DNA of 20,136 nucleotides. Source: a virus. The notes under the pieces are model-generated. The model saw only the letters and a list, made by a program, of their open reading frames with translations, made no database searches and had not been told where the DNA came from. Below are positions 833 through 18,082 of this stretch, piece by piece. A program made the translations under genes and the position numbers. The DNA lies in the IMG/VR virus record IMGVR_UViG_3300045131_000564, positions 1 to 20,136 of that record; one strand, 5' to 3'. Position 1 is the stretch's first letter. Each line of letters opens with the position of its first letter.

Positions 833-1771
833 ATGGCCGATACAACTACAACAGTCGCACAACCTGGGACGGTTAATAATATCGCCACCTCCTATACGAT
901 GCCGGGGTATGTAACTGCCCCGAGTCAGCAGTTTGGAGGCTTCCTACAAGACTACTACAACAGCATGATCAATCCGACCACCGGCATGACGGGTGGTTAC
1001 ACTGGACAAATGAGTGCTGGAATTGATCCTCTGCAACAGAGTGCGTTGAACCAAGTACCCAATGCAGTCGGGGCATGGGGTGACAACTATGCTGCTGGCA
1101 ATACCATGATGCAAAACGCAGGCACCGCCTCCGCTGGTTTGGGTGTGTTTGATCCTGCGAAAATGCAGCAACAGTTGAACCCTTATTTGTCTGGCGTCAA
1201 TGATCAGATCGCAACACTTGGCAATCGCAACCTTATGGAAAATGTTCTTCCTGGGGTGAATAGTACGTTTGCTGGAAATGGTCAATTTGGCTCGACACGT
1301 AATGGTGATTTCACAAATCGTGCAATCAGGGATAATCAACAGGCGATCAGCAATGCTCAGGGTACAGCAATGAATCAAGCGTACAACCAAGCTGCGACAA
1401 ACAACCTTGCCTGGAATACCGCAGGACAAGCCGCTGCAAACGGTGCATTGCAAGCTGGACAAAATATTTACACTGGCGCATTGCAGGCAGGACAGCAGAA
1501 CTGGAACGATTTAAGCAATACGTTCAACATGGGTGCTCAGAACAGAGCAGTCAATCAAGAAGGTTTGACTGCCGATTTCAACAACTGGCAAAACACTTGG
1601 AATATGCCGCTTGATGCAATGGGCAAGATGGGTGGTGTGTTGAACCAACTCAAGTCAGGAATAAATCCGACAACACAGCAAGTCAACACCACGTCTGCCG
1701 ATCCGAACTCTGCGCTTTATTCTTGGTTGACTGAACAACTGGCAGGTATCGCCCCTGGAACAACTCAGTAA
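833..1771 (+). CDS. Putative podovirus internal virion / DNA-ejection-type protein
   Basis: This 312-residue protein is rich in Gln, Asn, Ala and Gly. The segment NPYLSGVNDQIATL (about 123-136), then a P-x-V-N-S-T-F-A-G-N-GQFGSTRNGD stretch (about 143-163) and an Ala/Gln/Asn-rich helical region (about 170-245), fits a widespread phage virion family that I recall as '..NPY...V.......GQFGSSR.G...'. Those proteins sit next to large internal core or lytic proteins in podoviruses. A heptapeptide GALQAGQ occurs twice. The ATG is preceded by GAGGATAAT and starts one base after the upstream stop. The family match is from memory; the ejection role is inferred from the neighbours. Confidence 0.7.
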   Translation: MADTTTTVAQPGTVNNIATSYTMPGYVTAPSQQFGGFLQDYYNSMINPTTGMTGGYTGQMSAGIDPLQQSALNQVPNAVGAWGDNYAAGNTMMQNAGTASAGLGVFDPAKMQQQLNPYLSGVNDQIATLGNRNLMENVLPGVNSTFAGNGQFGSTRNGDFTNRAIRDNQQAISNAQGTAMNQAYNQAATNNLAWNTAGQAAANGALQAGQNIYTGALQAGQQNWNDLSNTFNMGAQNRAVNQEGLTADFNNWQNTWNMPLDAMGKMGGVLNQLKSGINPTTQQVNTTSADPNSALYSWLTEQLAGIAPGTTQ

Positions 1772-1780
1772 GGATTACAA

Positions 1781-3397
1781 ATGGACAACATGCTGACCCC
1801 TGTCGCTAATCTTGGTGCAACTGATCCTACTGCAAGCATGCCAGATGAAATCAAACAGCTTCTGGCCGAATTGCCTAGCTGGATACAACAACGCAACGAC
1901 GCTATGGGTGGAATCAAACGAGCCTACGATGAAGACCCTCGTTTAAAAGAAACGCCTTTCCAAGCCAAGGTCAGGGGAATGTTCAACAACGACGCCCCGA
2001 CAAACGCAGCATATTCCGTTGCCAGAGGCAGTGAAGCAGAACAAGCACAAAAAGAATGGCTGTTTAAGCACAAACTCGGAAGAGAAGAAGCGGTTCTTAA
2101 AAACCTAGATCTAGATACCTTTGATAAGATGTATTCAAAGGTCGCTAAAAACGTCAACAGTAGTAAAGACGATTGGGTTGTCCATGGGGCTCCAGATACA
2201 GGTTTTTATCGCATAAACAAAGTTACGGGTGAACAAAAACTCGTTATTCCTGGCGTCATGCAACAACGTCAAAAATCTATTTTGCGTAATATCCTCTTGA
2301 CTGAACGCTTAAAACAAGGTGGGGACGATAAAGAAGCTGCAAACTATGCAGACAAAACAGCTCACGATATAATCTTCAAGTATGGACCAGAAGAGGTAGA
2401 ACGGTACATCAATGAAAACGGTAACGCAACTACTCTGGTTGCTGATCAGAAACTTCTTCCAAAAACTGATGAAACATATCAAGCGTTAGATATACAACAG
2501 ATTGATAAGGAGTTGGCACGCCCTGGGATTTCCCCTACCACAAAAGCGACTCTACTTGAACAAAAACAACGGTTGACTGTCCCCACTGCACCCGCTTATC
2601 AAGGTACACCTAGGCAAACAGCTTCTGTTGATAAAATGGCTACTGTATCAGGGCTTCCACCTTTACAAACTCCTGCACAATTGAAACATGCTGCTGAATA
2701 TGAAGGTGAAGCGGGTAAGTTGGCTTCTGAAGAAGCGGGCAAGGTCATACCTGAAGCAATTACTCAGCACGGAGCTATGCGTAAGAATATAGTTCCTATG
2801 GAATCGATGGTTCTGAGTGGTAAATTGAATACTGGCCCATTGCACGAGTTTAAATCCGAGCTAGGCGGTTTCGTAAACTATTTTGATCCTGAGCAAAAGA
2901 TCGCACAATCTAGTTCAAATGACCAAGCTTACTTCGGTAATCTTATGAATGTGGCACGTGAAAAGATCAAGGCTCTGGGTTCCGGAACAGCTGTATCTAA
3001 CCTTGACTTGATAACGACTCTCAAATCTTTGGGGGATCTGCGTAACAATCCTCAAGGTATCTTGAAACTTACAGGATTATTGAATTATTTGTCAGTTTTG
3101 CAAGAAGATCAGTTGAAGAATAAGCAGAAACATATCGTCAAAGAAAAGCGTATGGACAATTGGACTCCTGATACTAAGAACTTCAGCCATGCGTTGACTT
3201 ATAAGCTTGTATCTGTTCCAGGTACCGATAAAACACTTTGGCAGATGATTCCTATCAGTAAGCAAGAATGGGCAGATTCGCACGGTGGTAAAATGCCAAA
3301 TGAACGTGATTGGAACGAATTTGCTGCCAAATCGTTCAGAGGTTCTGCTGATATAGACGCTTATATCAGTTCTTACCAAAAAGGAAAGAAGAAATGA
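1781..3397 (+). CDS. Large phage protein, probable internal virion protein, family not recognised
   Basis: This 538-residue protein is hydrophilic and mainly helical in character, with many Lys, Glu and Gln residues. There is no signal peptide, transmembrane segment or nucleotide-binding motif that I can see. The C-terminal part (about 330-440) has amphipathic helices such as the EEAGKVIPEAI and LTGLLNYLSVLQEDQLKNKQKHIVKEK stretches. The start at 1781 is supported by AAGGA about 7 bases upstream. The stop overlaps the next start as ATGA (3394-3397), so the two products are translationally coupled. Its position between a GQFG-type virion protein and a Gly/Ala-rich putative ejection protein suggests part of the internal core or tail. 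The function remains unknown. Confidence 0.7.
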   Translation: MDNMLTPVANLGATDPTASMPDEIKQLLAELPSWIQQRNDAMGGIKRAYDEDPRLKETPFQAKVRGMFNNDAPTNAAYSVARGSEAEQAQKEWLFKHKLGREEAVLKNLDLDTFDKMYSKVAKNVNSSKDDWVVHGAPDTGFYRINKVTGEQKLVIPGVMQQRQKSILRNILLTERLKQGGDDKEAANYADKTAHDIIFKYGPEEVERYINENGNATTLVADQKLLPKTDETYQALDIQQIDKELARPGISPTTKATLLEQKQRLTVPTAPAYQGTPRQTASVDKMATVSGLPPLQTPAQLKHAAEYEGEAGKLASEEAGKVIPEAITQHGAMRKNIVPMESMVLSGKLNTGPLHEFKSELGGFVNYFDPEQKIAQSSSNDQAYFGNLMNVAREKIKALGSGTAVSNLDLITTLKSLGDLRNNPQGILKLTGLLNYLSVLQEDQLKNKQKHIVKEKRMDNWTPDTKNFSHALTYKLVSVPGTDKTLWQMIPISKQEWADSHGGKMPNERDWNEFAAKSFRGSADIDAYISSYQKGKKK

Positions 3398-5205
3398 GCG
3401 ACTTTTCTCCAATCTACGAAGACAATTTCGGCCCTTCTTCTGAAGATTTATCCCCTGAACACCCTGAATCTTTTAAACTTCCTGAATATGCCAAGGGGTA
3501 TTCAGGAGGTGAAGCTGGGGCCATTGGTGTGGGAAGAGGGCTCACAAAAGCAGGGCACGGTGTACTAGATCTAGGATACAAGTTACTTGGTAAAGATAAA
3601 GAACGAGCTGCTCTTAAGAAGGAAGATGAAGAAAACGATAAGTACTGGAATCAAGGTATAGCTAATCAACAATCTCCTAATCGTTACTACGCCAAAGGCG
3701 GTGAATTTGCAGGTGAGGTTCTGCCTTCGTTAGCAATTCCGGGTGGTACAGCGAAGACATTGTTAGGTCGCGCAGGATTAAACGGTTTGATCGGAGGAGG
3801 TTACGAAGCTCTTACTTCGTCAGGTGATCTTACAGAGCGAGGTCTAAAAGGCGCTCTAGGGTTTGCAGGAGGAGCAATTGGTTCCGCTGGAATCGAGACC
3901 GTTGGTAAAGGTGCGGCCGGACTCGCTGGAAAGTGGGGTAACAAATCAGCACAACAAGCTGACAAAGTTGCTAAAGATATGGGGTTGAAACCAGGCATAG
4001 GTGATCTGCTACCTCCTGACGAAGGAACTCTCATTCGTTCTGGTGAAAACTTCCTTACAAATCTTCCTTATGGTCATGGGGCGCATAATAAAAACACTGA
4101 AAAACTTCGCAAACTGATTGTTCCAGATGGTGACACTGGCGTAAACAAAGTAACGAAATCTGTTTTAGCAACTGATGAGAAGGTTAGACAACATGCTGAC
4201 GCTATCTATGCTCCTGTGAAACAAAAGATAGGAAGGACAACCATACTTATAGACGCTCCCAATATGCATATGGCGGCTTCTCAACTTAGAAAGAATTATC
4301 CTAAAATATTTGAAGATTCTTATTACAAGACTTCAGAAATAGAGAAGTTCAACGACTTCATAGATAACCCCAGTGCGCTAACTTACGATGAATTTAGAAG
4401 CATCCAACAAATGCTCGGTTCTGCACAAGGAAGGGCAAAGAGCCTTGTCAACAAGGGAGAAATCGTTGGGAATGCTGTTGGAGATGCAAAACAGGCTTAC
4501 AAGAGTTCTAAAACTGATTTTGATTCATGGGGTCAGAATAGTTCCCCTAGTACCAGATCTAAGTATGCCAATATTGTTAAAGAGCACAATGACGCAACTG
4601 CTCGTTGGGAAAAAGAAGTACTTCCTTGGAGAAAGTCTGATGTCGCACATAATCTAAGGAATGTTGAAGAATTAGGTGCGCCTAAAACAGCAAGTATCAT
4701 TGGAAATGAAGCAGACACTCAGGCGATAGACCGTGTTCGTAAGTATCTTAAACAATATGGTCCTGACGGTAATTCTGATCTAGTTGACACTTTAGCACTA
4801 ATGCGCCGCAATGCAGAAGATTTAAGTTCTGTACCTGATCGCACACTTCATTTAAGTTCTATTGGTGCAACTGTTGCAGATACAATGGGTTTAGGTCTGC
4901 CTAGCACAGTAATGCGCGCCTCAAAAACTCCATTTGGAAAAGGATGGTACTTCGGCGATAGTTCACACTTCATGCCAAGTGATTTTGGTGGAAATGCTCC
5001 ATCAGAACTATTGGACCAAATCATGCAAGGTGGTACTCGTACAGGTATCGGTATTGGAAGAGAAACGGCAGATGCTCAGCTGTCAACTTTGAAGTTCATA
5101 AGCGATATGAAGAAGAAACACCTTGGTAACGCTGAAGATTCAAATATTTCAAGTGCCAATCAAGCGGGTACACGTGGAAACAACCCAATTGAAAGCGGTT
5201 TTTAA
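3394..5205 (+). CDS. Putative internal virion / DNA transfer protein with Gly/Ala-rich hydrophobic region
   Basis: This is a 603-residue protein. Residues about 34-60 and 106-180 are Gly/Ala-rich and hydrophobic: GEVLPSLAIPGG, then GLIGGGYEAL, then GALGFAGGAIGSAGIETVGKG. Such a block is typical of podovirus ejection proteins that are thought to enter the host envelope. The rest (about 185-560) is soluble and helical. It has the segment SGENFLTNLPYGHGAHNKNTEKL, which I have seen in similar phage proteins, given here only as a family impression. The protein ends with a polar, Asn/Ser-rich tail. The ATG overlaps the upstream stop and has AAGGAA upstream. It is the last gene before a 623-base gap, so it likely closes the late operon. 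The ejection role is inferred, not shown. Confidence 0.7.
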   Translation: MSDFSPIYEDNFGPSSEDLSPEHPESFKLPEYAKGYSGGEAGAIGVGRGLTKAGHGVLDLGYKLLGKDKERAALKKEDEENDKYWNQGIANQQSPNRYYAKGGEFAGEVLPSLAIPGGTAKTLLGRAGLNGLIGGGYEALTSSGDLTERGLKGALGFAGGAIGSAGIETVGKGAAGLAGKWGNKSAQQADKVAKDMGLKPGIGDLLPPDEGTLIRSGENFLTNLPYGHGAHNKNTEKLRKLIVPDGDTGVNKVTKSVLATDEKVRQHADAIYAPVKQKIGRTTILIDAPNMHMAASQLRKNYPKIFEDSYYKTSEIEKFNDFIDNPSALTYDEFRSIQQMLGSAQGRAKSLVNKGEIVGNAVGDAKQAYKSSKTDFDSWGQNSSPSTRSKYANIVKEHNDATARWEKEVLPWRKSDVAHNLRNVEELGAPKTASIIGNEADTQAIDRVRKYLKQYGPDGNSDLVDTLALMRRNAEDLSSVPDRTLHLSSIGATVADTMGLGLPSTVMRASKTPFGKGWYFGDSSHFMPSDFGGNAPSELLDQIMQGGTRTGIGIGRETADAQLSTLKFISDMKKKHLGNAEDSNISSANQAGTRGNNPIESGF

Positions 5206-5211
5206 GCAATA

Positions 5212-5251
5212 GAGCAAAGTGCGGTAGGCTACCATAGCTACCCACTTGCTC
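5212..5251 (+). terminator. Large imperfect hairpin after the late operon (possible terminator)
   Basis: GAGCAAAGTG (5212-5221) pairs with CACTTGCTC (5243-5251) with one bulged A. GGTAG (5223-5227) then pairs with CTACC (5238-5242), leaving a 10-nt loop. It begins 7 bases after the stop of the last virion gene. No U-tract follows, so it may be a processing or 3' protection hairpin rather than a classical intrinsic terminator. Confidence 0.5.
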
Positions 5252-5342
5252 AAACCCTGCTGCTGGTCGTCTCCTGGGCTGCAATAACGCAATTTTGTGG
5301 CCGTTTTGCCCAGTTGTTTACACCACACCGCACATCGTCTTT

Positions 5343-5380
5343 AACTTGTAAACATTCAGTAGACTAGATGTTTACAAGTT
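5343..5380. repeat. Perfect 13-bp inverted repeat with 12-nt spacer
   Basis: AACTTGTAAACAT (5343-5355) is the exact reverse complement of ATGTTTACAAGTT (5368-5380), separated by 12 bases. A further TTGTTTAC half-site lies at 5314-5321. It could be an operator, an origin element or a bidirectional terminator. The stem is A/T-rich and no clear T-tract follows. Confidence 0.85.
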
Positions 5381-5466
5381 TGCTCAGCAACCTAACAGTG
5401 TGCTACCGATTTAGCATATAGGGTATATTGCACTGCAACACAACATTGGGGGTTAGCTAAGTTTAT

Positions 5467-5502
5467 TGCCAGCCAAACACTACGCAAAATAAAAAGCTGG
5501 CA
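5467..5502. repeat. 7-bp inverted repeat TGCCAGC / GCTGGCA
   Basis: TGCCAGC (5467-5473) pairs perfectly with GCTGGCA (5496-5502) across a 22-nt loop. The same left arm, as CCAGCCAA, can instead pair with TTGGCTGG at 5552-5559. The meaning is unknown; it belongs to the repeat-rich part of the intergenic region. Confidence 0.5.
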
Positions 5503-5594
5503 TATATTACTAGCCTAACTAACTAAACATTGGTGTAAGTTGTTGTTTTTATTGGCTGGTTCACTAAACACAAATCGATCACTTTAACTTTAGT

Positions 5595-5623
5595 GTGACA
5601 GCATAAGCAAACGCTTATATAGG
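5595..5623 (+). promoter_or_regulatory. Candidate sigma70-like promoter with operator-like dyad in the spacer
   Basis: GTGACA (5595-5600, one mismatch to TTGACA) is followed after 17 bases by TATAGG (5618-5623). Within the spacer and touching the -10 lies the perfect dyad ATAAGC-AAAC-GCTTAT (5603-5618), a typical layout for repressor control. It would drive the replication operon beginning at 5829. The -10 match is only 4 of 6, so the call is tentative. Confidence 0.35.
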
Positions 5624-5828
5624 TTGGCTAAAATGTCGTTTTAAGAGTTTGTGCAGTGCAACATTTGCTAAGGAATCTACTCTGTCGCGGGATAGAATAT
5701 TATATATTATTTTCTTTGAGAATTGAGACGATATGGGTGGTCGAAGGACGATTGTTTGAGCAACTGTTGCTGCGACGTTTGGTTTGTGCCACAATGGCAA
5801 TGCTGTTTAATAGGTTAAAGGAGAAGTT

Positions 5829-11021: not shown

Positions 11022-12540
11022 TAATCAGTCGTTAATACTTGGTCCGCCAGGATGCGGCAAAACGACGAAAGTGTTAAGCGAGATTGACGCGTTGTTGCAA
11101 TCCGGGGAATCACCTGATAGGATTGCATTTGTCAGTTTTACAAAGAAGGCGATTGCAGAGGCAACGGGACGGGCGGGTGAAAAGTTCAATCTGAAGCCGC
11201 GTCAGTTACCAATGTTCAAAACAGTTCATGCAATGTGTTTCGCTGGACTCGGTATAGGTAAGAGTGACGTTGTTGGTAAGGAGCATTATAGGGAACTTGG
11301 AGAATGGTTGGGTTATCGATTTGAAGGGACTTGGGATGAATCTGAAGGTGTACCTGTTGGAAGTGAAAAAGGTGATACATTATTATTCTTGGATAATCTT
11401 GCGCGTGTCACACAACGCCCTCTTAAAGAAGTGTGGGAAGAGAATTATCACGAATGCGAGTGGGAAGAACTAGAGCGCTTCCAAGAAGGTTATCAAGACT
11501 TCAAATCCAGCAAGTATGTCATGGACTTCACCGACATGTTGTCGGCCTATATTGCAATGTGCGACCCCTCGCCGGCAAGACAGGTTATTGTTGATGAAGC
11601 ACAGGACTTGTCTTCACTCCAATGGTCTGTTTTGAAGCACGCTTACGGTAATGTTCGACAAACAATAATTGCGGGTGACGATGATCAGAGTATCTATAAG
11701 TGGAGTGGAGCCGATGTCAATGCGTTTCTGGCGCTAGAAGGTGACAAAACAATTCTTAGCAAGTCATACCGCTTGCCGCGTTCTGTTCATGAAATTGCCA
11801 ATGGTATTGTTCAAAAGATTGAGAATCGTTTTGACAAACCGTTTGACCCGCGTGATTCAGAAGGTGAAGTCAATTTCATGACTTCGCTAGAAGAAGTTGT
11901 GGTAGTAGAGGAAAGTACGCTATTCCTTGTTCGCAACACCTACCTTGCAAGGAAGGTACAAGATTACATGCACCGGATGGGAATCCCTTATACAAACAAA
12001 TACGGCTTCTCATCAGTACGTTCGGCACATATTAAGGCGATTGAAGGTGTGGAGAAGTTGCGTAAAGCTGAAATGGCAACAGGTGCAGAAGTCAAGGCAA
12101 TGTATGACAATATGCGAATTGGTGAATATCTAGCTCGCGGTTTTAAGGTCAAGGTTGCTAACCTTAAAGATACAGACCTGTTTAGCTTTGCAGAACTGCG
12201 AAATAATTTTGGCCTGTTAGACATTGCACCGTGGTACGCTTGTTTACATGGTATTGGGGACGACCTTATAGCCTATTACCAACGCTTGGGAGCAAATGGG
12301 CACGGGCTAAGCGCCACACCAAAGTGCTCTATTAGCACGATACACGCAGCGAAAGGTGGTGAAGCGGACCACGTTGTGTTATTGAGCGACATGGCTTATA
12401 GGTCACATCAGGAGTATATAAAGCAACCAGACAATGAACGTCGCGTTGCTTATGTTGGGGTAACAAGGGCAAAGGAAAAATTGACCATCGTTCTTCCTTC
12501 TTCAAAACTATATTACGACTATTATGGTGATTCGCAATGA
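11008..12540 (+). CDS. Superfamily 1 UvrD/Rep-type DNA helicase (compact)
   Basis: This 510-residue protein has Walker A GPPGCGKT (12-19), motif Ia FVSFTKKA (41-48), Walker B VDEAQD (195-200), motif III GDDDQSIYKWSGA (223-235), motif IV SYRLPRSVHE, and the C-terminal pair ISTIHAAKGGEADHV and YVGVTRAKE (motifs V and VI). It is shorter than E. coli UvrD (about 720 residues), because the 1B and 2B insertions are reduced. These enzymes unwind DNA 3' to 5'. AAAGGA (10994-10999) lies 8 bases before the ATG, and the gene starts inside the primase gene, so the two proteins are translationally coupled and may act together at the fork. Confidence 0.95.
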   Translation: MRISDNQSLILGPPGCGKTTKVLSEIDALLQSGESPDRIAFVSFTKKAIAEATGRAGEKFNLKPRQLPMFKTVHAMCFAGLGIGKSDVVGKEHYRELGEWLGYRFEGTWDESEGVPVGSEKGDTLLFLDNLARVTQRPLKEVWEENYHECEWEELERFQEGYQDFKSSKYVMDFTDMLSAYIAMCDPSPARQVIVDEAQDLSSLQWSVLKHAYGNVRQTIIAGDDDQSIYKWSGADVNAFLALEGDKTILSKSYRLPRSVHEIANGIVQKIENRFDKPFDPRDSEGEVNFMTSLEEVVVVEESTLFLVRNTYLARKVQDYMHRMGIPYTNKYGFSSVRSAHIKAIEGVEKLRKAEMATGAEVKAMYDNMRIGEYLARGFKVKVANLKDTDLFSFAELRNNFGLLDIAPWYACLHGIGDDLIAYYQRLGANGHGLSATPKCSISTIHAAKGGEADHVVLLSDMAYRSHQEYIKQPDNERRVAYVGVTRAKEKLTIVLPSSKLYYDYYGDSQ

Positions 12541-13073
12541 ACAATATAATGCTTGACCTTGAAACATTGGGTACTGGAAATAATGCTGTCATTATTTCAA
12601 TAGGTGCGGTTTTGTTTGACAAAGACGGTGTAGCGAATGAAACGTTCTATTTGCGAGTCAACCCTCAGTCCTGTGTTGACGTCGGTATGGAAATGTCAAC
12701 TTCAACCGTCATGTGGTGGATGAAACAAAGCGACGAAGCCCGTGCAGAGTTTGACAAACCTTCTTATACGATTGGTGCGGTTTTGCAAGACTTTTCAGCA
12801 TGGATTGACGCCAATAGTGATAACTTCAAAGACCGCAAAATCTGGGGCAACGGTGCTACGTTTGATAACGTAATACTTGACAACGCTTACAGAAAGTGTA
12901 AACTTGAAAAACCGTGGCCGTATTGGGGCGACACATGTTATCGCACGTTGAAGAATCTATTTCCTGAAGTAAAGATGGAACGAACTGGTACGTTTCACAA
13001 CGCACTTGACGATGCGCGTAGTCAAGCCGAACATTGTATCCGTTTGCTGAAAGCGGCAGGAGTATGGAAATGA
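12537..13073 (+). CDS. DEDDh 3'-5' exonuclease (RNase T / DexA-like, PF16473-type)
   Basis: This 178-residue protein begins MLDLET, giving catalytic D7 and E9 (ExoI). The ExoII region is NGATFDN, with D110. ExoIII is H154-x4-D159 in HNALDDA. The first half contains SIGAVLFD and MSTSTVMWWMKQSDEAR, typical of the single-domain phage exonucleases related to T4 DexA and the Rv2179c-like family. The ATG overlaps the helicase stop as ATGA. It would trim 3' ends of DNA or RNA and could serve in proofreading, recombination or degradation of host nucleic acid. The catalytic set is complete, so activity is likely; the substrate is not predictable. Confidence 0.9.
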   Translation: MNNIMLDLETLGTGNNAVIISIGAVLFDKDGVANETFYLRVNPQSCVDVGMEMSTSTVMWWMKQSDEARAEFDKPSYTIGAVLQDFSAWIDANSDNFKDRKIWGNGATFDNVILDNAYRKCKLEKPWPYWGDTCYRTLKNLFPEVKMERTGTFHNALDDARSQAEHCIRLLKAAGVWK

Positions 13074-13963
13074 CTGAAATGGAAGAGTTGTTCGTTTATT
13101 GGGTAAAAGAACGTGAAGCAATTCGTGTCAAGAAAGAAGCGGGTGCGCCAAAACCGTGGACTAACGATCCTATTTTACAGACTTACAAGTTCTGTAACGT
13201 GAAACGTGAAGATGATACGGTCAGCAAGTGGATCACTGAAAACTGGATTAAGCCAAACGACCCGCATCCGAATATGTGGTTTGCGATGATCGTTGCACGT
13301 TTGTTCAATTGGCCTCCGACGTTAGATTTAATCGGTTTTCCGAAATATCGATTAGGTGAGAAAGAAACATTCTGGCCTGAATTAAAAGAACTTTGGAGAG
13401 ATCAGTTAAAAGTTTATCGCGATAGACTAGGTGCTAAGATCTTCACAGGCGCATATCTTGTTTCAACCAATGGTGTAAGTATGGACAAGATTGATTATAT
13501 TCTTGACCGCGTGTTGACACCTATTTGGGAACGTGGGCGTGCTCCTATGACCGTAGCTCTTTCGTTCGATGCAAAGAACAATGATAGTCAAGAATCACTC
13601 GAAAGTTACTGGAATCACTTGCGCCAATTCGACGGCCTCGGTAGTTTTATGGCAGGACAAGTGGTTGCCGATCTGAAGTTCACATCTGAACTCAAAGATG
13701 CACCAGACTGGTGGACTTGGGCACCTCTCGGTCCCGGTTCAATTCGTGGCTTGAATCGCATTCACGGGAGACCCCTTGAGAAAGGTTTACGCCAAGATCA
13801 AGGGTTGAAGGAAATGCTAGTGTTGCAAGATCTATTGATTAAAGAACTTGATTGGAAACTACCTGTTCACAATGTTCAAAATTGCTGTTGCGAATTCGAT
13901 AAGATGATACGTGTCAAGAATGGAGAAGGTCGCCCTCGTTCACTTTACCCAGGAGTTAAATGA
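13070..13963 (+). CDS. 5-hmdU DNA kinase helical-domain / amino acid:DNA transferase family protein (thymine hypermodification)
   Basis: I chose ATG 13070 (297 aa): AGGAG at 13058-13062 is 7 bases upstream and the start overlaps the exonuclease stop as ATGA. Upstream TTG and ATG codons in the same frame are worse placed. Signature segments are the FCNVKREDD motif (41-49), LFNWPP (78-83), FTGAYLVSTNG (125-135), GSFMAGQVVADL (191-202), GPGSIRGLNR (221-230), and CEFDKMIRVKNGEGRPRS (274-291). These match the family once called alpha-glutamyl/putrescinyl thymine pyrophosphorylase, now split into a helical domain of 5-hmdU DNA kinase and amino acid:DNA transferases. They attach groups to hydroxymethyl-dU in phage DNA. 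There is no P-loop kinase domain, so the transferase branch is the better guess. A thymidylate synthase homologue lies close downstream. Confidence 0.85.
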   Translation: MTEMEELFVYWVKEREAIRVKKEAGAPKPWTNDPILQTYKFCNVKREDDTVSKWITENWIKPNDPHPNMWFAMIVARLFNWPPTLDLIGFPKYRLGEKETFWPELKELWRDQLKVYRDRLGAKIFTGAYLVSTNGVSMDKIDYILDRVLTPIWERGRAPMTVALSFDAKNNDSQESLESYWNHLRQFDGLGSFMAGQVVADLKFTSELKDAPDWWTWAPLGPGSIRGLNRIHGRPLEKGLRQDQGLKEMLVLQDLLIKELDWKLPVHNVQNCCCEFDKMIRVKNGEGRPRSLYPGVK

Positions 13964-14292
13964 TGCAGATCAAAGTTTGCGGTTTACCGTTCGATGTTTC
14001 CTTTGTTGAAGGTGGGCACGCTGTTAGCCATACCAGCGTACGTGGGCATCTTTACGGCGAAGTCTCGTACGATAAAGAATCGATTCGCATTGACAACACC
14101 AAGTCGTTGGAGATGATGAACCAAACGTTCTGGCATGAAGTCGTGCACGTTATCGTTGAACGACTTCAGATTCGTGAGTTGATGGACCATGAGAATATTC
14201 ATTATGAAACACCGATTGATCAAATTGCCCTAGGTATCTTCAATGTTTTGAACTCGTTAGATCTTGATGTGATTAAAGATAAGGAAGTGTGA
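13963..14292 (+). CDS. Mini HExxH metallopeptidase-like protein (ImmA/IrrE or minigluzincin type)
   Basis: This 109-residue protein starts at ATG 13963, with AGGAG (13951-13955) 7 bases upstream. An alternative ATG one codon earlier overlaps the previous stop. The core is WHEVVH (57-62), giving zinc ligands H58 and H62 and the catalytic E59. The following E77 or E82 in ENIHYETPIDQIALGI may be the third ligand. The N-terminal beta strands GLPFDVSF, GEVSYDKESIRID match the ImmA/IrrE-like minimal metallopeptidase layout. Such small phage proteins are often of unknown role. It sits between a DNA-hypermodification family gene and a thymidylate synthase homologue, which is notable. The catalytic residues are present, so activity is possible but unproven. 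Confidence 0.75.
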   Translation: MQIKVCGLPFDVSFVEGGHAVSHTSVRGHLYGEVSYDKESIRIDNTKSLEMMNQTFWHEVVHVIVERLQIRELMDHENIHYETPIDQIALGIFNVLNSLDLDVIKDKEV

Positions 14293-14294
14293 AA

Positions 14295-15257
14295 ATGTTA
14301 GTTATCCGTGGTCAAAATGTAAATGACGTCCTGCCAGTCGGTATCATGCACTTGAAGAATGGAGAAAAACGTGACTCAAGAAACGGACCTGTCCTTGAAA
14401 TCCCAACAACTGTTTGCGTCCATTATGACTACCCCGACGAACGAGTCCTCTTTGAACCTTTACGAGACGCTAATCCATTCTTTCATCTCTTCGAAAGTCT
14501 CTGGATGCTTGCAGGAAGAAACGACGTTGCCTTTCTTAACGAATACAACTCCAGAATGGCACAGTACAGCGACGACGGCAACGGCTTCAACGCCGCCTAT
14601 GGGCAACGTCTCCGCTCCGGATTTGGATTTGATCAACTCGATGTCGTTATACAGCGACTTAGAAAGGACCCTGACGACAGACGCGTCGTTTTACAGATTT
14701 GGGATCCTGCAGATTTAAATAAAGAGTCAAAAGACTACGCCTGTAACTTAGTCATCACCCCGCGCATTCGCAATGGTAAACTCGACTGGACAGTGTTCAA
14801 TCGTAGCAATGACTACTTGCTCGGTATGACCGGGGCTAACGTGGTTCACATGTCAATCATTCAAGAATATGTTGCTCGTATGGTAGGCGTTCCGATGGGA
14901 AGTTACGAGCAGATCAGCAATTGCCTACATGTTTATACAGAATTGACGCCGCATTGGGAACGATTGAAAGATCTTCCATTGACTGTTGATTGCCCATACA
15001 AAGAAGCCCGCGTGTCGTCGTTCCCGTTGATTACCCACAAAGAAAGCTGGATGTCAGATCTGTACACTTGGATGGACAAACCGTGGGGTGGACAGGTTTA
15101 TTCTGATCCATTCTTCAACTACGTTGCGAAACCTATGGCGATTGCACATCGGGCGCACAAAGACAACCGCAACGGGTTACAATATGTAAATGCTATACAG
15201 GCAACTGACTGGAGATTAGCTTGTGAACAATGGCTTACAAGGAGAGAAGTGAAATGA
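14295..15257 (+). CDS. Thymidylate synthase homologue (thymidylate synthase or dUMP hydroxymethylase)
   Basis: This 320-residue protein starts at ATG 14295 with AAGGA about 9 bases upstream; a GTG at 14289 is in frame. The fold is recognised from FHLFESLWMLAGRNDV, the SDDGNGFNAAYGQRLRS block, the phosphate-binding DDRR (127-130), a catalytic Cys in YACN (Cys150), RSND..LGMTGAN (170-182), and H212-x-Y214. Asn182 stands near the site that selects uracil (Asn) over cytosine (Asp), so the substrate is probably dUMP. Phage members that make 5-hydroxymethyl-dUMP have this same overall pattern, and sequence alone does not tell them from true thymidylate synthase. The neighbouring hmdU-DNA family protein makes hydroxymethylation attractive. 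It is coupled to the next gene by ATGA. Confidence 0.9.
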   Translation: MLVIRGQNVNDVLPVGIMHLKNGEKRDSRNGPVLEIPTTVCVHYDYPDERVLFEPLRDANPFFHLFESLWMLAGRNDVAFLNEYNSRMAQYSDDGNGFNAAYGQRLRSGFGFDQLDVVIQRLRKDPDDRRVVLQIWDPADLNKESKDYACNLVITPRIRNGKLDWTVFNRSNDYLLGMTGANVVHMSIIQEYVARMVGVPMGSYEQISNCLHVYTELTPHWERLKDLPLTVDCPYKEARVSSFPLITHKESWMSDLYTWMDKPWGGQVYSDPFFNYVAKPMAIAHRAHKDNRNGLQYVNAIQATDWRLACEQWLTRREVK

Positions 15258-15706
15258 GTGCAAATGAAAAGCAAATCGGTGGTGATCACTACGATAAAAG
15301 CGGTGAGCAACATTGGGATAGGCAATACCGTTTGAATGGCCGTGGATATTTTGTTGGATGTGCTACAGGTTACATCGAACGTTACCCTTTTAAGAACGGT
15401 AAACAAGATCTCGAAAAGGCAATTCACTTTCTTCAGAAACTGATCGAACTTGAGTACCCTGAAGAAAAGGCTGAACCGAAGAAAGTAGCACCGCTGGAAA
15501 AGCTGTCTAACGAGATTGAAAAATTATCTCAAGCAATCACGTCTGCACCAGATCATCTTAAAGAGTTCGTACCTACACCGTGGCAACAAGAGGTCGCTGC
15601 TAAGTTCGATGATCTACGTGAAAAACATGCCATCAGTCCGATGTTACAGAGATTTTTGAAAGAGACAGATGAACCGTATCCGAACGGTTATGTTAATCAG
15701 GACTGA
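15254..15706 (+). CDS. DUF3310 (SaV-like) protein
   Basis: I chose ATG 15254 (150 aa): AAGGAG (15239-15244) is upstream and the start overlaps the thymidylate synthase stop as ATGA. An in-frame ATG at 15230 lies further upstream without its own site. The N-terminal IGGDHY (8-13) and the YIERYPFKNGKQDLEKAIHFLQKLIE segment (40-65) are the DUF3310 signature. Members are frequent in phage nucleotide-metabolism clusters and are sometimes labelled nucleotide kinase, but I know of no proven activity. The C-terminal half (about 80-150) is helical and less conserved. Confidence 0.85.
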   Translation: MSANEKQIGGDHYDKSGEQHWDRQYRLNGRGYFVGCATGYIERYPFKNGKQDLEKAIHFLQKLIELEYPEEKAEPKKVAPLEKLSNEIEKLSQAITSAPDHLKEFVPTPWQQEVAAKFDDLREKHAISPMLQRFLKETDEPYPNGYVNQD

Positions 15707-15708
15707 AT

Positions 15709-16368
15709 ATGGAAGACAATCAGCAACACTACCACAGTTCGGACAGGTTTCCATCTCGTGACACTCTGCTATGGCTCGACAGTCTTGAGAATGTACGAGC
15801 AGTTTCATCCAACTACACTGTAACTGCTTCGGATGATTATCTGCTTGTTGATACGACCTCGGGTGACGTGACTGTTACGTTGCCAAATGCTATCAATGGT
15901 CGCAAGTTGCACGTAGTAAATTACGCAGGAACAAACGATGTCATTGTTACATCTACGGTTGACATAAACGGTTCTGCGTCCGATTTCACAGTAGCGTCTG
16001 GAAACATTGCTTCTGTAAAGGATGTTGGCGGAGAATGGGTCACTTCTCCGATGACCTTCTCTTCAGGTGGCCCTGGGAGCGATCCGGGTGCGTCAGGTTC
16101 TACGACAATCGATTTCGGTGCATCCCCTGCAACAGAAGCTTCGGTCACCGTGTCGGGTCAAACAGGGTTGTTAAGCACGTCACAGATCGAAGCGTTTGTT
16201 GTTGCCAGAGGTTCAGGGGCGACCCTTGCAAATCAGCAGTTTGCAGCTATTGCTTTTAGGCTAATATGTGGGGAAATAACACCCGGAGCGAGTTTTGTCA
16301 TTCGGGCGTATTGCACCATTGGCTATGCCGAAGGTACTTTTGAAATAGATTGGACTTGGAGAAATTGA
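15709..16368 (+). CDS. Beta-rich virion-like protein (tail fibre/decoration-type domain)
   Basis: This 219-residue protein is rich in Ser, Thr, Gly and Val. Residues about 33-112 (NYTVTASDDYLLVDTTSGDV, then TLPNA.NGRKLHVVNYAGTNDV) match the short beta repeat often found in phage tail-fibre and decoration proteins. A Gly/Pro/Ser linker (about 117-130) leads to a second beta domain with VTVSGQTGL, SQIEAFVVARGSGAT, and a final YAEGTFEIDWTWRN. It lies 2 bases after the DUF3310 stop with AGGA about 7 bases upstream. It stands out among enzymes of DNA metabolism and pairs with the next gene. A surface-exposed virion role is inferred. Confidence 0.7.
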   Translation: MEDNQQHYHSSDRFPSRDTLLWLDSLENVRAVSSNYTVTASDDYLLVDTTSGDVTVTLPNAINGRKLHVVNYAGTNDVIVTSTVDINGSASDFTVASGNIASVKDVGGEWVTSPMTFSSGGPGSDPGASGSTTIDFGASPATEASVTVSGQTGLLSTSQIEAFVVARGSGATLANQQFAAIAFRLICGEITPGASFVIRAYCTIGYAEGTFEIDWTWRN

Positions 16369-16369
16369 T

Positions 16370-17821
16370 ATGAGCGGATTCTTACAAAAGATCATCGGTT
16401 ATGTTACGGGTAACGGACTTGAAGTCAATTCAAGCAACGAAGCAAAGGTAGTAACCGACAAAACAAGATCGAGCGTCACTTTATTCTCTGAGAACGATCC
16501 CGGCACTATCACAGGGGTGCCTCTTTTAATGGCACCCGAGATTTCAGCGGATTATCGTCTGCGTGTTGGTATCGACACGGTGTTGTTTACAGATACGTTC
16601 AATGCGACAACGCAGAACTCGAATCTCTGGGCTTACACCCTTGCCACGTTGACCTGCACGCAACCGGGTGGATATCTTCAATTCGGTACGGTACAAGGTA
16701 CAGGTGCGGGTCATGGGGCATTCATACGTTCGTTTCAATACTTTCCATTGGTGGGCACGGCTCCGCTGTCTGTTGAATTCTCAGGCTCAAGCAATACGTC
16801 TGCCCTTGTTCCCAACGAAGCGTTCTACGCGGGTCTAGGTCTTCCCTCTGCTGCCGCTACGATTCCAACAGACGGTTGCTGGTTCAAGATGACATCTTCA
16901 GGACTGTTCGGTGAACTTCAATACAACGGTGGCACAGTTGTTCAAGTCACTTTGATGAATACCCAGATTCCATTAGCAACCAATGCGAAATTTGCGATGG
17001 TCGTCGGTGAAGATGCAATCAGGTTCTGGGTTGATGATGTTCTGTACGGCAGCATCACAATCCCCGCAGGTTACGGCCAACCGTTTATGACAGGTTCGTT
17101 GCCAGTGTTTTTGCAGAAAATCTGCACAGGGACGGTAAGCAACACCAACACAATCAGAATCACTGACGTCACTGTCTCCTTGATGGATTTGGCAACAGGT
17201 AAACCGTGGTCGCATCAAGTTGCAGGCATGGGGCAACACGCGCTGTTCATGCAAAACGGTACGACTATCCCTACCACGGGCGCGAAAACAACGGTATGGG
17301 CAAACAATACTGCGCCAACTGCTGTTGCATTGACCAACACCGCTGCATCATTTACTGGTCTCGGTGGTATTGCCGCTGTTCTTCCTACGTTGACGGCAAA
17401 CAATGATGGCAAACTGTTCACGTACCAAGTTCCGGCAGGTACGATCAACCTGACAGCACGTAATCTGTACATCACACGAGTCACGCTGAAAGGTGCTGTA
17501 TCCGTGGTCCTTGTCGGTGGTCCGGTGATCTACGCTTACGCTCTGGCAGTGGGACATACGGCAACTTCGCTGGCTACTGCAGAAACTGCATCCTTTGCCA
17601 CTGCTACAGCACATGCGCCGCGTATTATGGCATTGGGTATGGAATCCTACGCAGCTACCGCAGCAGTTGGTACGTTGGGAACAGGTATCGATTTGAACTT
17701 TGATACCCCGATCTGTGTACGTCCTGGCGAGTTTGTGGACATCATCGCTCGTAACATCGGCACTGTAACCACAACTGGAGCAATAACTATCGTAGCTTCT
17801 GTAGGCGGTTATTGGGAGTAG
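16370..17821 (+). CDS. Large beta-rich virion-like protein, possible lectin-type (concanavalin-like) fibre or head decoration
   Basis: This 483-residue protein starts 1 base after the previous stop, with GGAG about 11 bases upstream. The N-terminus (1-30) has GNGLEVNSSNEAKVV, a pattern I have seen at the start of other phage virion proteins. Residues about 75-260 have a jelly-roll-like pattern of alternating beta segments (for example FTDTFN, GCWFKMTSSGLFGELQYNGG, DAIRFWVDDVLYGS). Residues about 330-483 form a second beta/Gly/Ala/Thr-rich domain (TYQVPAGTINLTARNLYI). No enzymatic motif is visible. It is followed by a strong hairpin, so it closes a two-gene cassette. Host-surface binding or decoration is inferred. 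Confidence 0.7.
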   Translation: MSGFLQKIIGYVTGNGLEVNSSNEAKVVTDKTRSSVTLFSENDPGTITGVPLLMAPEISADYRLRVGIDTVLFTDTFNATTQNSNLWAYTLATLTCTQPGGYLQFGTVQGTGAGHGAFIRSFQYFPLVGTAPLSVEFSGSSNTSALVPNEAFYAGLGLPSAAATIPTDGCWFKMTSSGLFGELQYNGGTVVQVTLMNTQIPLATNAKFAMVVGEDAIRFWVDDVLYGSITIPAGYGQPFMTGSLPVFLQKICTGTVSNTNTIRITDVTVSLMDLATGKPWSHQVAGMGQHALFMQNGTTIPTTGAKTTVWANNTAPTAVALTNTAASFTGLGGIAAVLPTLTANNDGKLFTYQVPAGTINLTARNLYITRVTLKGAVSVVLVGGPVIYAYALAVGHTATSLATAETASFATATAHAPRIMALGMESYAATAAVGTLGTGIDLNFDTPICVRPGEFVDIIARNIGTVTTTGAITIVASVGGYWE

Positions 17822-17850
17822 TTGTAAACGATTTAAAGCTGTTGTAATAT

Positions 17851-17884
17851 GTAGTTATGCCGCTATGTAGCGCGGCATAACTAC
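17851..17884 (+). terminator. Strong hairpin, probable intrinsic terminator after the virion cassette
   Basis: GTAGTTATGCCGC (17851-17863) and GCGGCATAACTAC (17872-17884) form a perfect 13-bp stem with an 8-nt loop. It lies 30 bases past the stop at 17821. The tail TAATCTTATA is only moderately T-rich, so termination may be partial. The next gene starts 18 bases later. Confidence 0.7.
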
Positions 17885-17902: not shown

Positions 17903-18082
17903 ATGACAAAATACGGAACATTGCCAGCCAAACCTATTATAGAAGAGGTTGATGAAGTTATCATTTGCCCCAAATGTGGGTCAGAAGATATTTCGCATAT
18001 CCATCACGAAGGTGATTATGCTGTTCCTGAAACAGACTATCATCATTGCAATGACTGCAACCTTTCTTGGGGGTTTGAATAA
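17903..18082 (+). CDS. Zinc-ribbon microprotein 1 (59 aa)
   Basis: The frame from ATG 17903 to TAA 18082 gives 59 residues and is the first of two adjacent small zinc-ribbon genes. Cysteine pairs CPKC (23-26) and CNDC (49-52), with a His-rich stretch between them, form a plausible zinc ribbon. AGGTGA (17893-17898) lies 4 bases before the ATG, and the stop overlaps the next ATG as TAATG. Zinc ribbons of this size in phages may bind nucleic acid or host transcription machinery, but the target is unknown. Confidence 0.75.
   Translation: MTKYGTLPAKPIIEEVDEVIICPKCGSEDISHIHHEGDYAVPETDYHHCNDCNLSWGFE

Follow-up and report, generated by a model that had tools for sequence, protein, structure and literature searches.

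The window, as the whole stretch of DNA analysed is called here, is a virus record of 20,136 bases. It carries a cassette of two intact ORFs, ORF1 and ORF2, between a DUF3310-like gene and a zinc-ribbon ORF (Table 1). We consider it moderately probable that this cassette codes for an accessory two-component virion fibre built of a native anchor, an acquired docking domain, and a lectin-like tip. The N-terminal domain of ORF1 (ORF1-N) would anchor the fibre to the particle, and the C-terminal domain (ORF1-C) would form the tip of this anchor and act as a socket, into which the opening ~34 residues of ORF2 (ORF2-N, the plug) fit. The remaining part of ORF2, with a jelly roll and a second beta domain, would be the distal part that binds a surface sugar. 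Socket, plug, and tip would form one module traded among unrelated phages, where it is located among virion genes, and the ORF2 bodies would be swapped behind a constant plug. In the present lineage, the module would have been joined to a native anchor and placed between the DUF3310 and zinc-ribbon genes. The domain architecture, the exchange of the module, the covariation of its parts, the empty sites of relatives, the G+C contrast, and the gene contexts are observed, while incorporation into the virion, physical docking, sugar binding, and a role in adsorption are inferred.

Table 1. Features of the cassette and of its neighbourhood, with positions in the window.
Feature	Position	Strand	Remarks
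DUF3310-like gene	15230..15706	+	left neighbour of the cassette; PF11753 E 5e-4, below its cut-off; phrog_5839 E 3.7e-21
ORF1	15709-16368	+	219 aa; intact
ORF1 residues 1-112, N-terminal domain	15709..16044	+	proposed virion anchor; motif SDRFPSRDTLLWLDSLE and small beta domain
ORF1 residues 113-125, Gly/Ser-rich linker	16045..16083	+	from sequence; low pLDDT
ORF1 residues 126-219, C-terminal beta domain	16084..16368	+	proposed docking domain for ORF2; pLDDT mostly above 90
ORF2	16370-17821	+	483 aa; intact
ORF2 residues 1-34, variable N-terminal segment	16370..16471	+	proposed plug; covariation with ORF1-C
ORF2 residues 58-274, concanavalin-like jelly roll	16541..17191	+	proposed glycan-binding domain; structural matches
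ORF2 residues 331-483, C-terminal beta domain	17360..17821	+	role unassigned; strands in model; outside the structure matches
Perfect inverted repeat	17851-17884	.	13-bp arms, 8-nt loop; assigned to the site rather than to the cassette
Zinc-ribbon ORF	17903..18082	+	right neighbour of the cassette; weak zinc-ribbon matches

Genome arrangement around the cassette

ORF1 begins 2 nt after the DUF3310-like gene, and ORF1 and ORF2 are tightly packed. The genes around them belong to DNA metabolism (AEP-type primase, UvrD helicase, exonuclease, 5-hmdU DNA kinase-type protein, thymidylate-synthase-type protein, and pyrimidine-dimer glycosylase), and such a gene row is an odd place for a structural gene. 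An earlier sequence-only reading of the window had described a two-gene cassette at this place, far from the other virion genes. Both statements hold, as the coordinates were confirmed and the virion genes of the window, at 833-5205, code for ejection and DNA-transfer proteins and are ~10 kb from the cassette. An artefact or a chimera was considered as an explanation of the cassette and was ruled out, as four more contigs, from other records (L001-L004), carry the identical cassette.

The insertion site in related viruses and base composition

According to the thymidylate-synthase-type protein, the closest relatives are L036-L039 (93%) and L040 (90%), followed by L041 (72%) and L042 (71%). ORF2 is present at the site in 0/7 relative records that cover it (L036, L037, L039, L040, L041, L042, and L043) and ORF1-N in 2/7. 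Among the closest relatives, L036-L039 look like repeated copies of a single phage type and do not count as independent, and L038 is left out of the site count as it ends ~108 bases past its DUF3310 gene. L041 has only the N-domain of ORF1 at the site, and L042 has the N-domain with a different C-terminal half. The cassette-bearing L004 and the cassette-free L036 share the metagenome number 3300044952. The cassette is thus missing from the closest relatives and is not universal at this position; universality had been named in the sequence-only reading as an outcome that would speak against its proposal.

The G+C content of ORF1-C with ORF2 is 0.502, while 725 other windows of that length have a mean of 0.436 and a maximum of 0.477, so that 0/725 reach it. 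For ORF1-N the value is 0.459, which is ordinary for the genome. This contrast agrees with the homology pattern, in which ORF1-C and ORF2 look imported and ORF1-N native. Together with the sites of the closest relatives, the deviating composition supports the late insertion that had been proposed.

RNA genes and inserts appear to accumulate at the site between DUF3310 and the downstream genes. L041 has here ~260 non-coding bases with long end segments in inverted orientation (L041:12154-12413), and a 17-base motif GTAAACTNGGCACGTTG occurs twice in L041 (11755 and 12378). In the more distant L043, five tRNA genes (Pro, Thr, Met, Ser, and Leu) lie between the DUF3310 and glycosylase genes (L043:1988-3215).

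Hairpin and transcription signals

A perfect 13-bp hairpin had been reported behind the cassette, and it is present as the inverted repeat in Table 1. Its length is beyond chance, as a simulation of 20 windows that kept the base-to-base transitions yielded none as long. In the sequence-only reading it served as the cassette's own terminator. That role is unsupported, because hairpins occur at sites without the cassette, the sequence downstream is TAATCTTATAGG where an intrinsic terminator would have a T tract behind its GC-rich stem, and the repeat is missing from the output of the terminator scan; the hairpin was therefore rejected as a cassette terminator.

In the cassette-free L036, L037, and L039, an 11-pair hairpin with similar flanks lies between the DUF3310 and zinc-ribbon genes, and L042 has a hairpin of different sequence in the same place. 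In L040, a tRNA-Met (CAT) gene (11576-11652) occupies the place of the hairpin. Since relatives without the cassette have a hairpin or a tRNA there, the hairpin belongs to the site and not to the cassette. The acceptor stem of the L040 tRNA, extended by GTAGTT/AACTAC, agrees with the arms in the window at 11/13 positions in each arm, and each of the two differences has a compensating change on the opposite arm. The hairpin at 17851-17884 may be a remnant of a tRNA, or the L040 tRNA may have been inserted into the loop of a hairpin.

No promoter of the cassette's own was seen; the upstream spacer is 2 nt long, and a promoter could lie inside DUF3310. Promoter-like sites in the window are at chance level (18 vs 15.5 expected, sd 4.4). 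An extended -10-like motif TGTTGTAAT is present at 17840, before the hairpin, but such motifs are at about chance level and no promoter is claimed. No Rfam family reached its gathering threshold in the window. Another perfect hairpin of 13 bp (5343-5380) lies inside a gap of ~620 bases without a convincing gene (5206-5828), between the ejection and DNA-metabolism genes.

Domains of ORF1

ORF1 looks like two parts joined together, with a first half native to the phage group and an imported-looking second half. By homology, ORF1-N is native to the group: the search recognized 8 loci, of which four are this strain and the rest are four relatives of the same phage group only. The match to phrog_15797 has E 2.5e-4. 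In G004 (a 69.6-kb record), ORF1-N is the N-terminus of a 519-aa tail-fibre-like protein (phrog_18345, tail fibre, E 1.8e-16) coded in the virion module beside phrog_3287 and next to other fibre-like genes. In G005 (70.2 kb), it is a 119-aa ORF behind phrog_3287, also in the virion module. G006 and G007 (the latter a 69.0-kb record) have ORF1-N at the DNA-metabolism site, and the virion module of G007 contains other fibre-like genes and no ORF1-N copy. Each of the records G004-G007 has one copy, as read from 69-70 kb records classed as linear, for which completeness is not given. The window's own virion module lies only partly inside the window, and a second copy there is possible. On these grounds, ORF1-N would attach ORF1 to the virion.

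No solved fold was matched by ORF1-N above noise. All its structural matches have Z 6.5 or less, which is within the noise range stated for the tool; this includes the alignment of ORF1 residues 27-106 to residues 88-179 of CBA120 TSP4 (Z 5.7-5.9), examined in the search for a T4gp10-like docking domain. In the ORF1 alignment used (A6), four of the N-terminal homologues were shortened to some 60-70 residues.

The model of ORF1 has a mean pLDDT of 76. The best PDB matches of ORF1-C are C-terminal domains of tailspikes, namely LKA1 gp49 (Z 9.3 over 82 residues, 2.3 A), phi297 gp61 (Z 8.4), and Sf6 (Z 8.3). Discoidins, pyocin fibre tips, and H-type lectins follow with Z about 7-8; the H-type lectins SLL-2 and Helix agglutinins, at Z 6.8-7.3, are under 8 and below the tailspike matches. 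In a library of predicted viral structures, the ORF1 model is similar to ~90-aa proteins of uncultured Caudovirales phages (TM 0.81-0.84) and also to a collagen-repeat protein.

In unrelated phages, homologues of ORF1-C are coded in front of ORF2. All 17 loci examined, the window included, have a beta-type domain that ends immediately upstream of ORF2, and only in the L130/L132 group and in L141 is this domain not of the ORF1-C type. Some of these upstream proteins have stalk-like features, such as poly-Gly linkers or, in L137, a collagen-like repeat with tail-fibre matches.

Domains and family of ORF2

The sequence-only reading had regarded both proteins as beta-rich, and the predicted structures agree, as the models are almost all strand; that of ORF2 is weak, with a mean pLDDT of 56.8. 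Residues 58-274 match GH16 enzymes and L-type lectins with Z 14.5-16.6, where GH16 glucanases reach 16.6 and lectins follow within about 1 Z unit. The catalytic motif of GH16 is E-x-D-x-(x)-E. Neither this motif nor that of PL7 was found inside the jelly roll in any of the 14 members searched; matches to the GH16 motif occur only in L136 and L137, at residues 40-41, before the jelly roll. As a lectin-like domain, the modelled jelly roll would bind a surface sugar.

Homologues of ORF2 were recognized in viral contigs at 22 loci, four of them of this strain and 18 others in 13 contexts, a grouping made by eye on the basis of equal identities and sequences. In 13/13 outside contexts, there is a virion gene at a distance of no more than about 10 kb. 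The genes beside these loci code for terminase, portal, major head, head-closure, DNA-transfer, ejection, and other virion structural proteins. These contexts, together with the position of ORF1-N on the tail-fibre-like protein of G004, support the earlier description of the pair as virion-like proteins with fibre- or decoration-like features, serving host recognition or capsid decoration. Proteins that are absent from virions and fold as enzymes had been named as the opposite outcome; the contexts are those of virion genes, and the jelly roll is without the motifs searched, GH16 enzymes being nevertheless among its matches.

No ORF2 homologues were found in genome contigs, and neither ORF1 nor ORF2 had sequence matches in 50,697 phage records or, apart from one row at chance level, in solved structures. 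Pfam gave no match for either protein and PHROGs none for ORF2. By eye, the cassette proteins showed neither a signal peptide nor a membrane segment.

Covariation of the proposed socket and plug

Identity in the upstream C-domain tracks identity over the N-terminal ~35 residues of ORF2 (Mantel r 0.53, p 0.0023, 13 pairs), whereas ORF1-C and the ORF2 body do not correlate (r -0.03, p 0.57, 13 pairs), and neither do ORF2-N and the ORF2 body (r -0.12, p 0.87). The window was included in these pairs; L143, with ORF2 cut by the contig end, and the copies L130, L133, and L142 were excluded. Along ORF2, r is 0.53 at columns 1-43, 0.04 by columns 61-103, and then between -0.20 and 0.11. When the two atypical upstream domains were removed, r was 0.69 (n = 11, p 0.0004), and with 8 pairs it was 0.64 (p 0.0033). 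For the socket and plug of the window, the nearest counterparts are in L134 (60% and 62%), while for its ORF2 body the nearest is that of L126 (78%). L139 and L141 have a 91% common ORF2 body behind different upstream domains.

Covariation confined to the N-terminus of ORF2 agrees with the docking prediction, and ORF1-C and ORF2-N are putative physical partners on this basis. Adjacency or linkage with recombination inside ORF2 would also give such covariation. As a more tentative proposal, which is possible but doubtful, the ~95-aa tailspike-tip-like socket and the ~34-aa plug could be a previously undescribed fibre standard. It would be a matched pair inherited across very different tailed phages, with lectin-like bodies freely traded and a tie to the virion operon loose enough for it to settle in a DNA-metabolism row and be made early. 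If so, the type of socket would predict the type of plug, a simple rule for uncultivated phages that swap putative host-binding parts, and a name would be given to a widespread family of lectin-like virion proteins that is missing from both Pfam and PHROGs. A fibre gene could then live outside the structural operon, where annotation pipelines and host-range predictions would miss it.

Alternative explanations

The cassette could also code for a head fibre or decoration, with ORF1 on the capsid and ORF2 coating the head with a sugar-binding domain. ORF2 homologues lie between terminase, portal, and major head genes in L126, L129, L132, and L140, and the capsid spike 9ny6 is among the structure matches of ORF1-N, at Z 5.9 and thus within the noise range. 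Against this, ORF1-N heads a tail-fibre-like protein in G004, near other fibre-like genes, and the matches of ORF1-C are dominated by tailspike tips. The anchor thus points to the tail and many homologue contexts to the head region, and we hold a head fibre to be rather unlikely. An active glycan-cleaving depolymerase of GH16-like fold, carried as ORF2 on the fibre, would suit the GH16 glucanases at Z 16.6 among the best structural matches, but it is improbable given the missing motif in 14/14 jelly rolls and the lectins of the same fold so close in Z.

It is a little less probable still that the cassette codes for a non-virion protein made together with the DNA-metabolism enzymes and acting in or on the infected cell, such as a surface lectin or a factor of superinfection exclusion. 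Its position 2 nt behind DUF3310 in the same gene row is what such a protein would have, and co-expression with the DNA-metabolism genes would be expected. The outside homologues are nevertheless found in virion modules in all 13 contexts, the anchor domain is carried by the tail-fibre-like protein of G004, and inspection by eye noted neither membrane segment nor signal peptide. The sequence-only reading had compared the cassette with a moron. Absence from the site in relatives and deviating G+C content speak for this; an own terminator was not borne out, no separate promoter was seen, and the first half of ORF1 is native by homology. A strict moron, which would be foreign throughout and bring along both a promoter and a terminator, is very improbable: close relatives lack the cassette and its composition contrasts with the genome, but the hairpin occurs without the cassette and has no T tract in the window, the 2 nt upstream leave no room for a promoter between DUF3310 and ORF1, promoter-like sites are not above chance, and ORF1-N comes from the phage group itself. 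An accessory fibre with a native anchor is the reading preferred here.

Comparison with known systems

Anchor-branched RBP systems are described for podoviruses and other phages, e.g., G7C gp66/gp63.1, KP32, KP34, and K1-5, in the part of Latka et al. 2019 (PMC6872550) available to us. There, an anchored first protein carries a second one via a short conserved N-terminal peptide, and the distal parts are exchanged horizontally. To the extent of that account, the cassette is similar in its phage-specific putative anchor with a proposed docking domain, a short N-terminus that would dock, and exchanged distal parts. An N-terminal anchor conserved in the phage group, as expected of the first protein, was found by homology for ORF1-N, and a short N-terminal segment matching the first protein, as expected of the second, is suggested by the covariation of ORF2-N with ORF1-C. 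Unlike the systems in that account, the docking domain models as a tailspike tip or H-type lectin and not as a demonstrated T4gp10-like domain, the second protein would be a jelly-roll lectin-like protein and not a depolymerase, and the genes are located in a DNA-metabolism row. A narrow literature search found no fibre genes relocated to the early region, which is no proof of absence in print.

The predicted fold of ORF1-C resembles C-terminal domains of tailspikes (LKA1 gp49, phi297 gp61, and Sf6 TSP) and H-type lectins with Z 6.8-9.3. Unlike these, domains of the ORF1-C type in the loci examined either stand alone as a ~95-aa protein or end a longer upstream protein, with an ORF2-type gene next, and there is no sequence match to solved structures. 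ORF2 residues 58-274 are predicted to fold as the concanavalin-like jelly rolls of GH16 glucanases and of the L-type lectins ERGIC-53 and Emp47p (Z 14.5-16.6), but ORF2 differs from GH16 glucanases in the missing motif and in a sequence family absent from Pfam and PHROGs. With phage morons, as the portion of PMC7067206 at hand describes them, the cassette shares extra genes missing from the site of near relatives and a deviant base composition. It differs from that description in having no terminator of its own, no sign of its own promoter, and a native first half of ORF1, and in being probably a part of the virion and not a benefit to the lysogen.

Other features of the genomes

The UvrD helicase of L040 (5415-7760) has an in-frame insert of ~271 aa, which starts with C and ends with HN before S, and which we take to be intein-like from this signature; the copy in the window is without the insert. 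In the window, the 5-hmdU DNA kinase-type protein (13034-13963; PF18723, E 2.3e-39) adjoins the thymidylate-synthase-type protein (14289-15257), and judging from these two genes, the phage DNA probably carries a hypermodified thymine.
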